Shown in pieces: positions 29,246 to 64,000 of a stretch of DNA of 64,000 bases. The notes under the pieces are model-generated. The model was not told where the DNA came from. It searched no databases and worked only from the letters and a program-made list of their open reading frames with translations. The stretch comes from Roseibium denhamense (GTDB lineage: Bacteria; Pseudomonadota; Alphaproteobacteria; Rhizobiales; Stappiaceae), in contig NZ_SMLZ01000108.1 of NCBI RefSeq assembly GCF_009711415.1, forward strand, positions 125,892 to 189,891, in the 5' to 3' direction. A program made the position numbers and the translations under genes. Position 1 is the stretch's first letter; each line of letters begins with the position of its first letter.

Positions 29246-29260
29246 GAACAGTAAGAGAAC
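29246..29260 (+). promoter_or_regulatory. SOS box 1 upstream of lexA
   Basis: GAAC at 29246-29249 and GAAC at 29257-29260 are separated by 7 bp, a perfect match to the alphaproteobacterial LexA site GAAC-N7-GAAC. It lies about 10 bp upstream of the likely -35 of lexA. Confidence 0.8.
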
Positions 29261-29268
29261 GTTTACCC

Positions 29269-29297
29269 TTGCAGAACACAATAAGAACAGGTAGTGT
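29269..29297 (+). promoter_or_regulatory. lexA promoter with embedded SOS box 2
   Basis: A -35-like TTGCAG (29269-29274) and -10-like TAGTGT (29292-29297) are 17 bp apart. The second perfect GAAC-N7-GAAC site (29274-29288) sits between them, so LexA would block polymerase directly. A third, imperfect GTTC-N7-GTTT follows at 29297-29311. Confidence 0.75.
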
Positions 29298-29346
29298 GTT
29301 CTTGATTTGTTTCACAAGCGCCGCGAGCGCGAGAGGATCTGCAGCA

Positions 29347-30057
29347 ATGTTGACGCGCAAGCAGTACGAACTGCTCATGTTCATCCATGAAAGACTCAAG
29401 GAAACAGGCGTTCCGCCGTCCTTCGATGAGATGAAGGAAGCGCTGGATCTCAGATCCAAGTCCGGAATTCACCGGCTGATAACGGCGCTGGAGGAGCGCG
29501 GCTTCATCCGCCGTCTTCCGAACCGGGCTAGGGCGATGGAAGTTGTCCGCCTCCCCGATTCGATTGCGCCGGGTCTTGGCGCGCCGCGCCCGCGTGGCAG
29601 CTTTTCCCCTGAGGTCATCGAGGGCTCGCTCGGAAAACCGGAGCCCGCTAAACCGGCCCCTGAGCCGGAGACCAGCGGCATTGAAATTCCGGTCATGGGA
29701 CGCATTGCTGCGGGCGTGCCGATCGAGGCCATTCAGACCCACAGCCACTCGATCACGGTTCCGCCGGAGCTGCTTGGCAAAGGCGAACATTACGCTCTTG
29801 AAGTGCGCGGCGACTCCATGATCGAGGCAGGTATTCTGGATGGCGACACGGTGCTCATCCGGCGCACAAGCACCGCGGACAGCGGCGACATTGTTGTCGC
29901 ACTCGTGGATGACGAGGAAGCCACATTGAAGCGGCTGCGCAAAAAAGGTGCTTCAATCGCGCTGGAAGCGGCAAATCCGGCTTATGAGACCCGCATTTTT
30001 GGGCCGGGCCGGGTGCGCGTCCAGGGGCGCCTTGTGGCGCTGTTCCGGCAATATTGA
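29347..30057 (+). CDS. lexA: LexA, SOS repressor and autoprotease
   Basis: The start at 29347 ([20 protein letters not shown]) gives 236 residues. The N-terminal winged helix (about 1-65) includes [22 protein letters not shown] Pro-rich hinge leads to the cleavage site Ala-Gly in GRIAAGVP (about residue 119-120). The Ser of GDSM (about 157) and the Lys in EEATLKRL (about 195) form the Ser-Lys dyad. Two SOS boxes in its own promoter show autoregulation. The same box also occurs before a small ORF upstream of dnaE at 63461-63475. Confidence 0.97.
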
Positions 30058-62600: not shown

Positions 62601-63136
62601 CGCTGCAGGCGTTGAGCTGCAAGATCCTTGCGCCCGGCAAGCAGAGCCGCCACCAAAGGGCCGCCGACACCGCCGGTCAACAGGATGACGTCTTCTGCCT
62701 TGGACAGGAGATACGCTGCACCCACATGAGGGCGTAAACCAGTGTCCGTATCAAGAAAGGCCCGGGAACTGAGTTCCATGAGATTGCCGTAGCCAATTTC
62801 GGACATGGCAATGAGGACAACATCCGCCAGCGCAGGCTCGCCCCTGCGGCCGGTGTCCAGCCCATCATCAAACGCAACGGAAAGCTGGCAGGCGGTTATC
62901 GGCTGAATTCCGGCGCCCCAGGCTTTCGAGGAAAACTCCTGGGCGCCGAAGAGATTGTTCGTATCCGCGACCGCCAATGCCGGCTGTTCATCCGCCTTCG
63001 CCAGATCAAGAAGCTTCTTGATCGGCAAAGCCCCCTCGAGCAGCGAGAGCGCCGAGTGCACTCGCAGATGAACAAAGCCCGGCCCGTTGTTTACGGCCCT
63101 GCCCTGCATCTGATCGGTCAAACTGGCGTCGGTCAT
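59651..63136 (-). CDS. dnaE: DNA polymerase III alpha subunit
   Basis: The 1161-residue replicative polymerase has an N-terminal PHP domain (FVHLRVHSALSLLEGALPIK; the usual H-L-H is H-L-R here), the palm with catalytic Asp in RVSMPDFDIDFCQSRREEVI (about 425-444), VGPGRGSGAGSLVAWAL just before, the fingers SHAAAYALVSYHTAWLKANH, HhH around ALNKRTLENLVAAGAFDELE and a C-terminal OB domain. It lies downstream of a short SOS-type promoter and a 32-codon ORF; the intervening 187 bp (63137-63323) has no other feature I can support. The H-to-R change in the PHP site suggests loss of metal-dependent proofreading there. Confidence 0.97.
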   Translation of the reverse strand: MTDASLTDQMQGRAVNNGPGFVHLRVHSALSLLEGALPIKKLLDLAKADEQPALAVADTNNLFGAQEFSSKAWGAGIQPITACQLSVAFDDGLDTGRRGEPALADVVLIAMSEIGYGNLMELSSRAFLDTDTGLRPHVGAAYLLSKAEDVILLTGGVGGPLVAALLAGRKDLAAQRLQRLAGAFPGRCYVEIQRHGMEAEKKTEAAFLELAYGAGLPLVATNEAFFPKREDYEAHDALICISEGRVLIEDDRRRLTPEHYFKSRAEMCALFADLPEALASTVEIARRCSFRPLRRAPILPRFAGADADPEEAEKAEAAELLRQAREGLQDRLDKHGLAPGLEEKDYWDRLDYETGIIERMKFPGYFLIVADFIKWAKDHDIPVGPGRGSGAGSLVAWALTITDLDPMRFSLLFERFLNPERVSMPDFDIDFCQSRREEVIRYVQEKYGRQQVAQIITFGSLQARAVLRDVGRVLQMPYGQVDRLCKLVPANPANPVTLGQALDDEPRLREAAKEEEIVDRLLTMAQKLEGLYRHASTHAAGVVIGDRPLEQLVPLYRDPRSDMPVAQFNMKMVEDAGLVKFDFLGLKTLTVIDTAVKLIERRGEKIDVAGLPIDDVKTYELLAKAETFGVFQLESQGMRRAVAGMKPDRFEDIIALVALYRPGPMENIPIYNAVKHGEQEADCLHPLLEPILMETNGIIVYQEQVMQIAQVLSGYSLGEADLLRRAMGKKIAAEMEVQRARFVDGAVERGIKKDQAGTIFDLVAKFANYGFNKSHAAAYALVSYHTAWLKANHPVEFMAASMTLDLGNTDKLGDFRQEARRMGIEIVPPSINRGQVYFDVADGKILYAMGAIKGVGEQAVEHIVEVRGDRPFKSLGDFARRISPRALNKRTLENLVAAGAFDELEPNRARVFEGLDRIMGLAQRTEENRSVGQDELFGGSDSEEPLQLDEVHGWTSEEKLQREHSAIGFYLSAHPIDEYASVLKKMRAQPWTQFAEAVKKGASHGRLAGTVVSMQERKTKSGTRMGIARLSDATGQYEALLFREKLEQFRDVLQTGRSVVVLVGADMRDDEPSLRIEQVDPIDKVAARLQKSMRVFVRDERPIASLAKHLQMRGEGEVTVIVLLESGAREVEVKLPGRFRLSPEIAGALKAVPGVTDVQMA

Positions 63137-63323
63137 GGCAGCCCCCGGAGCGGTCTTGGAATCAGAGCGCAGTGAACCGCGAACCGCATTATGTGTCGAG
63201 AGACCGCGCGTTGCCGGGCCGAGTTGTCACCGGTCTTCTTGTCACAGCACCCGCTCCCCCGGACAAAAGGGCGGAACGCCAAAACTGCATGACAGCCCCT
63301 GGCGCCGCCGCTTAGGACAATGG

Positions 63324-63422
63324 TCAGCCAACGGCCAGAAGCACATCACCCCAAACGGCAAGCGTCGTGCAAAAGCAAACGATGGATCCCAGAGCGGCAA
63401 AATCACGAGCGATATGAAACAT
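63324..63422 (-). CDS. 32-residue single-span membrane peptide, candidate SidA-like SOS division inhibitor
   Basis: The ATG at 63422-63420 opens 32 codons ending TGA at 63324-63326. GGAG lies 6 nt before the ATG, an ideal ribosome site. The peptide begins MFHIARDF, continues with one hydrophobic helix (about residues 8-24, with Cys16 and Cys18), then W-G-D-V-L and a hydrophobic tail ending AVG. A perfect LexA box lies 39-53 bp upstream inside a plausible promoter. In Caulobacter, SidA is a 29-residue inner-membrane peptide induced by SOS that blocks division through FtsW/FtsN; I recall it being near dnaE but cannot confirm here. Same strand and upstream of dnaE. Function is inference from size, topology and regulation. 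Confidence 0.6.
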   Translation of the reverse strand: MFHIARDFAALGSIVCFCTTLAVWGDVLLAVG

Positions 63423-63460
63423 GACAGTCTCCAGCCAATTTCCTTACGTCAGGCGATTTT

Positions 63461-63475
63461 GTTCCATATACGTTC
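63461..63475 (-). promoter_or_regulatory. SOS (LexA) box in promoter of the 32-residue ORF and dnaE
   Basis: On the minus strand GAAC-GTATATG-GAAC is a perfect GAAC-N7-GAAC site. It lies between a possible -35 CTTGCA and -10 CAAAAT, 18 bp apart, so it would overlap RNA polymerase, as in the lexA promoter of this window. It is downstream of the lolD stop, thus not a lolD control site. The rest of 63476-63593 shows nothing further. Confidence 0.75.
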
Positions 63476-63593
63476 TCATTGCAAGCACTTTTTGTTCCTC
63501 TTGCCTTTGATAATTGACACCCCGCGGAATTCTGGCTGTTTTTGGTTTGTTCCGGTTCCACTGCGGCCGTTGCGATAGGCTGCAGCCGGGATC

Positions 63594-64000
63594 TCAAAGA
63601 TCTTTGACAAGGCCGTCCTGCAGCGTGATCGCCCGGTCCATGCGTCCGGCAAGATCAAGATTGTGCGTCGCGAACAAGGTTGCCACACCGGAGGCCCGCA
63701 CAAGCGCCGACAATGCATCGAACACGTAGGTCGCCGTGACCGGATCAAGGTTTCCGGTCGGCTCGTCCAGAAGCAGGATCCGGGGCGCATTTGCCACGGC
63801 CCGCGCGACGGCAACCCGCTGCTGTTCGCCGCCCGACAGCTCTGACGGACGGTGCTTGCCGCGTTCGCCAAGGCGCATGTAGGCCAGCAACTCATCGGCC
63901 CGGTCCGCGGCGACCTTTTTTGAAAGTCCCCGGATCATCTGCGGCATCATGATGTTTTCCTGTGCCGTGAACTCCGGCAGCAGATGATGGAACTGATAGA
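63594..64000 (-). CDS. lolD: LolD-type ABC transporter ATPase, C-terminal part (N-terminus off window)
   Basis: The visible 135 residues contain the Q-loop region [19 protein letters not shown], the ABC signature [20 protein letters not shown], Walker [14 protein letters not shown] and the switch His in [14 protein letters not shown]. The [10 protein letters not shown] segment is typical of LolD (lipoprotein release from the inner membrane, with LolC/E). The Walker A motif is off the window. An in-frame ATG at 63950 is internal. Confidence 0.92.

Follow-up and report, generated by a model that had tools for sequence, protein, structure and literature searches.

A conserved LexA-boxed peptide gene before dnaE in Roseibium, a probable distant orthologue of the Caulobacter division inhibitor gene sidA

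Results

Upstream of dnaE in Roseibium denhamense, within a 64,000-nucleotide stretch of contig NZ_SMLZ01000108.1 (positions 125,892 to 189,891; hereafter the window, counted from its first base), a 32-codon open reading frame (ORF) on the minus strand (63422-63324) encodes the peptide MFHIARDFAALGSIVCFCTTLAVWGDVLLAVG. By inspection of the sequence, this peptide of about 30 residues has a single hydrophobic span; hydropathy was computed for its relatives. All three elements reported by a first-pass annotation made from the sequence alone, namely the ORF, a ribosome-binding site and an exact GAAC-N7-GAAC box for the regulator LexA, could be located here, and the locus is made up of the following features:

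63324..63422, minus strand: 32-codon ORF for a SidA-like peptide with a single hydrophobic span
63429..63432, minus strand: Shine-Dalgarno motif GGAG
63456..63461, minus strand: -10 element CAAAAT (genus consensus CATANT)
63461..63475, minus strand: LexA box GAACGTATATGGAAC
63479..63484, minus strand: -35 element TTGCAA
63490..63497, minus strand: third GAAC half-site GAACAAAA
59651..63136, minus strand: dnaE, DNA polymerase III alpha subunit, the downstream gene (named from the sequence and by the first-pass annotation, without a family search)
63594..64000, minus strand: lolD-like ABC ATPase, the upstream gene, cut by the window end (recognised by an 11-residue motif; the name lolD is that of the first-pass annotation)

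The gene is conserved throughout the genus. When the 32 residues were searched against whole genomes, every one of the 45 in the genus gave a match with E of 1.7e-6 or less, and 80 of the 87 in the family gave one with E ≤ 1. In 45/45 genus genomes the peptide lies ahead of dnaE and on its strand, starting with ATG and preceded by a Shine-Dalgarno-type motif (in the window, GGAG at 63432-63429, 6 bases 5' of the ATG). Its length is 32 codons in 44 genomes and 33 in one (G030). The distance from the start of the LexA box to the ATG is 51-61 nt, and the box is exact in 38 genomes and has one mismatch in 7, a one-mismatch box having a few-per-cent chance per genome since the best box was chosen among 115 positions. 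Thus, the ATG, the ORF and the box, whose conservation in relatives had been proposed as a check, are kept across the genus. The motif DEPTGNLD lies upstream of the peptide, on the same strand, in 44/45 genus stretches.

The 44 distinct 32-codon sequences, i.e. with the 33-codon one excluded, gave proportions of non-synonymous (pN) and synonymous (pS) differences of 0.160 and 0.657 and a ratio of the respective rates (dN/dS) of 0.115, a value that is approximate because synonymous sites are near saturation (pS 0.66). The other frames yielded 1.53 (+1) and 2.24 (+2), and the reverse frames 1.43, 0.23 and 5.10; we explain the low value of reverse frame 1 (0.23) by the fact that the degenerate positions of this frame fall on the degenerate positions of the coding frame. 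These ratios indicate that the amino-acid sequence of the peptide is under purifying selection.

The promoter is conserved along with the ORF. In the window, 38 nt separate the box (63475-63461) from the ATG. When the 45 genus genomes were aligned on the box, TTGCAA started 9 bases before it (TTG in 100%, C, A and A in 95, 95 and 93% of the genomes) and CATANT at its last base, so that the box fills the 17-nt spacer between the two elements and the -10 element overlaps the last box base. A LexA dimer on the box would be expected to cover the promoter. The placing of the box between a -35 and a -10 element by the first-pass annotation is therefore supported by conservation, though a sigma-70 consensus scan found no promoter site here. 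Apart from this, the third half-site begins exactly 22 bp upstream of the box and is invariant in 45/45 genus genomes, giving GAAC at -22, 0 and +11 relative to the box, with the -11 place occupied by the -35 region.

We rejected the box as evidence by itself. The window holds 5 exact GAAC-N7-GAAC sites where 2.24 are expected (at least 5 were obtained in 6 of 100 shuffles). The whole genome has 136, compared to 221 sites of the reversed pattern used as control. Both counts are at background level. ORF and box in combination, conserved as they are in 45/45 genus genomes, far exceed chance. Furthermore, GAAC-N7-GAAC looks like the box type of this genome, because two exact copies precede the lexA gene, itself located in the window:

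29347..30057, plus strand: lexA, the regulator reading this box type
29246..29260, plus strand: LexA box upstream of lexA, exact
29274..29288, plus strand: second LexA box upstream of lexA, exact

The region upstream of lexA (29246-29312) also holds a third, inverted box with a single mismatch. The recA locus of the source genome (L149) contains no exact GAAC-N7-GAAC; two candidates with one mismatch each lie within 600 nt upstream.

Beyond the genus, the peptide precedes dnaE in 29/29 named Stappiaceae-like loci (L069-L097), many of which come from the same 45 genomes, and in 46 of 51 more distant loci (L098-L148), mostly titled as Hyphomicrobiales families. A rule that asked for a hydrophobic ORF of 25-40 codons with a Shine-Dalgarno motif found 43 of these 46, and a hidden Markov model (HMM) trained partly on distant-locus peptides added 3 (L111, L128 and L146); of the remaining loci, 3 are cut off by contig ends (L126, L141 and L143) and 2 are without peptide (L140 and L144). 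The best box in the 43 rule-found loci was exact in 39, with one mismatch in 3 and two in 1, counts that lean upward as the rule took the best-boxed ORF where several fitted. A Stappiaceae HMM run against the 51 loci yielded 43 match lines with E ≤ 1, of which 28 had E ≤ 0.01; on the opposite strand the corresponding numbers were 1 and 0. In L140 and L144 neither peptide nor exact box is found before dnaE, and these may be losses. As a separate observation, many distant loci (L104, L113, L115, L119, L137 and others), Xanthobacteraceae/Bradyrhizobium types among them, carry two back-to-back boxes, GAAC-N7-GAAC-N3-GTTC-N7-GTTC, before the peptide.

We also sampled the class, hand-picking roughly one genome per family (of 385 genomes searched, 359 had a DnaE match and 80 of these were used; 3 of the 80 stretches were short owing to contig ends). 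Of the 80, 14 carry an exact box in the 700 nt preceding dnaE, and we found a short hydrophobic ORF with a Shine-Dalgarno motif, by criteria independent of the box, in 13 of these 14 but in just 2 of the other 66 (Fisher p 4.5e-12); 64 genomes have neither box nor ORF. A family HMM trained without these genomes gave one match among the remaining class genomes and none on the opposite strand. Searching all 385 genomes with an HMM returned a match at E ≤ 1 in 139, most of it noise. The 8 best matches (E ≤ 3.9e-4) all lie directly before dnaE, 7 of them in genomes that contributed peptides to the query alignment and only G409 being independent, while weaker matches before dnaE (G095, G229, G089, G156 and G168; E 0.004-0.46) are mixed with ones elsewhere (from E 0.001).

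In Caulobacteraceae, a peptide of 29-31 residues precedes dnaE on the same strand in 30/30 genomes chosen from 249, by a peptide pattern written after a first inspection of these loci. Within 90 nt, their best box has no mismatch in 25 genomes and a single one in 5, a Shine-Dalgarno motif is present by the applied rule in 27 (it is absent in L293, L301 and L303), and the upstream ABC-ATPase motif was seen in only 21. We located Caulobacter itself by its beta clamp, three genomes being 100% identical to a chain of PDB 5wce that we take to be the Caulobacter protein. The peptides of these closest genomes match NF033228, the NCBIfam model for the cell division inhibitor SidA, with 72 bits and E 2e-20, the cut-off being 35 bits. 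This match establishes which gene it is and lends support to the genus assignment; a more distant family member, G149, reaches 20.5 bits, below the cut-off. The locus identifiers given in two articles, CCNA_02004 for sidA (PMC10769358) and CC1926 for dnaE (PMC1839093), agree with the position of the peptide before dnaE found in Caulobacter.

The Roseibium peptide is homologous to SidA. In a profile-profile alignment (hhalign), the Stappiaceae and Caulobacteraceae peptides align in register from Met1 over 18 ungapped columns. The score of 22.3 exceeds those of all 300 column shuffles, the best of which reached 16.5. The Stappiaceae HMM gave 21 match lines at E ≤ 1 and 2 at E ≤ 0.01 in the 30 Caulobacteraceae loci, all on the dnaE strand and 0 on the opposite one. 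Among nine other Stappiaceae peptides, two match NF033228 over residues 1-17 (E 0.003 and 0.006; 17.4 and 16.5 bits, below the cut-off), and the tenth peptide scanned, that of the distant locus L105, gave no match; in a 54-member alignment that includes 12 Caulobacteraceae peptides, 15 members match the model at E ≤ 10. The likeness to SidA, which the first-pass annotation had drawn from anatomy alone, is thus now backed by homology.

The two sides share a length of 29-32 residues, one hydrophobic span, an arginine at position 6 followed by an acidic residue at 7, a gap-free alignment of the N-terminal half and the place upstream of dnaE on the same strand, and the LexA box starts 29-65 nt before the ATG in the 30 Caulobacteraceae genomes. 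The window peptide differs in being 3 residues longer, with its Trp at 24 rather than at 19. The gap to dnaE differs as well. In the window, 187 nt separate the peptide stop from the dnaE start at 63136, or 214 nt if a possible start nearest the conserved FVHLR motif is taken; measured in the latter way, the gap has a median of 215 nt in the genus (range 155-403 nt) and of 35 nt in Caulobacteraceae (range 19-248 nt), and it is 35 nt in the Caulobacter genome G563.

Discussion

Our analysis indicates that the ORF before dnaE is a real gene, which we consider with a probability of about 0.8 to be a distant orthologue of Caulobacter sidA that is repressed by LexA, induced in the SOS response and, by analogy with SidA, able to hold the divisome. 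The orthology reading rests on profile similarity, shared locus and promoter taken together: the window peptide is most likely a SidA orthologue whose second half has strongly diverged and which is missed by the curated model. We define here a wider SidA homology group by profile similarity, LexA box, position before dnaE and single span, all of which were found for the window peptide. Outside Caulobacteraceae, members of this group fall below every curated family cut-off in the scans made. A literature search over titles and the opening lines of abstracts yielded no report of SidA outside the relatives of Caulobacter; an earlier mention in the original SidA paper or in a 2004 comparison of LexA regulons is possible.

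Several observations weigh against this interpretation. No curated family recognises the window peptide directly: a search of the NCBIfam and Pfam models gave no match (0 families, NF033228 with its cut-off of 35 bits included). Aligned without gaps to SidA of G563, the peptide is identical at 8/29 positions, and the profile alignment has an hhalign probability of 75%, not more, with the similarity confined to the 18 N-terminal columns. In the class sample, the family HMM recognises just 4 of the 14 box-positive genomes at E ≤ 0.01 and 8 at E ≤ 1, and several further families resemble SidA in anatomy, not yet in sequence. A further point comes from FtsW. PMC4211646 reports that FtsW(A31K) suppresses SidA but not DidA, and that F145L and A246T suppress both. 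The source genome has one match to the FtsW/RodA family; this FtsW (locus L308) keeps A31 and has L at 145 and S at 246. The leucine at 145 is the natural equivalent of the suppressing F145L. The contact must then be a different one, or else its loss is offset by the context, which speaks against a strictly conserved mode of action. As a test of a shared target, the suppressor positions gave a mixed result, and we did not use them as support.

The pairing of a chance ORF with a chance box can be practically discounted. The box pattern alone does occur at background level, but genus-wide conservation of both ORF and box was found, and the 45/45 conservation, the dN/dS and the recurrence across families all argue against chance. 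It is also improbable that the ORF is a leader whose translation regulates the downstream dnaE, with a peptide that has no function in trans. Such a leader would fit the fact that all the genus and Caulobacteraceae genomes examined have the ORF ahead of dnaE, and the gap of just 35 nt in G563; the purifying selection on the amino-acid sequence argues against it, as does the variation of the gap within the genus, and the Caulobacter member works as a protein according to PMC4211646.

Somewhat less improbable, yet still unlikely, is an SOS peptide of the TisB/DinQ type, which would be under the same control and of the same size but would lower the membrane potential and slow growth, with no target in the divisome. 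Short, hydrophobic and LexA-boxed peptides of this type exist, DinQ of Escherichia coli being one (PMC3567139). This explanation is at odds with the resemblance of the profiles to SidA and with the common location at dnaE. Against it speaks also the lack of any Rfam match at 62900-63800, i.e. of a known antisense regulator around the peptide, in a search that covered known families only. DinQ is membrane-acting and RNA-regulated, and differs in this from the window peptide while sharing with it the SOS control and the single span. The same holds for TisB of E. coli, an SOS-controlled single-span peptide.

If the gene is a sidA orthologue, a mechanism can be proposed along the lines known for SidA. 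According to PMC4211646, SidA is a protein of 29 residues that resides in the inner membrane and is induced in the SOS response; it interacts with FtsW and FtsN and stops division while leaving the divisome assembled. In undamaged cells, LexA bound to the GAAC-N7-GAAC box, which fills the -35/-10 spacer, would block transcription, as the box and its conservation suggest. After DNA damage, LexA would be cleaved and the 32-residue peptide made and inserted into the inner membrane, where it may bind the late divisome (FtsW, with FtsN/FtsI) and delay constriction until repair. DidA of Caulobacter, likewise a small single-span, damage-induced division inhibitor, has 71 residues, is SOS-independent and binds FtsN (same article). 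YneA of Bacillus and SosA of Staphylococcus are also small SOS-induced division inhibitors; they belong to another phylum and are likened here by description, not by sequence.

Co-transcription of the peptide with dnaE is plausible, most so in Caulobacter. A simple scan revealed no terminator-like site before dnaE, which says little, as the same scan also missed the promoter, and the main text of an article on the Caulobacter SOS regulon, tables aside, makes no mention of dnaE (PMC12700426). We tentatively suggest, as an idea that we would put at somewhat less than even odds, that SidA is the sole named member of an old alphaproteobacterial SOS module, in which a LexA promoter before dnaE would provide both an unrecognised, divisome-holding membrane peptide and, by read-through, a raised level of the replicative polymerase after damage.

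To our knowledge, how alphaproteobacteria other than Caulobacter stop division upon DNA damage is largely open. The gene described here offers a specific candidate, together with its promoter, for such a damage-induced stop outside Caulobacter, at one fixed place of the genome in Stappiaceae, other Hyphomicrobiales and Caulobacteraceae and with look-alikes in several further families. Furthermore, it leads one to ask whether the gene of the replicative polymerase is also transcribed from this SOS promoter.
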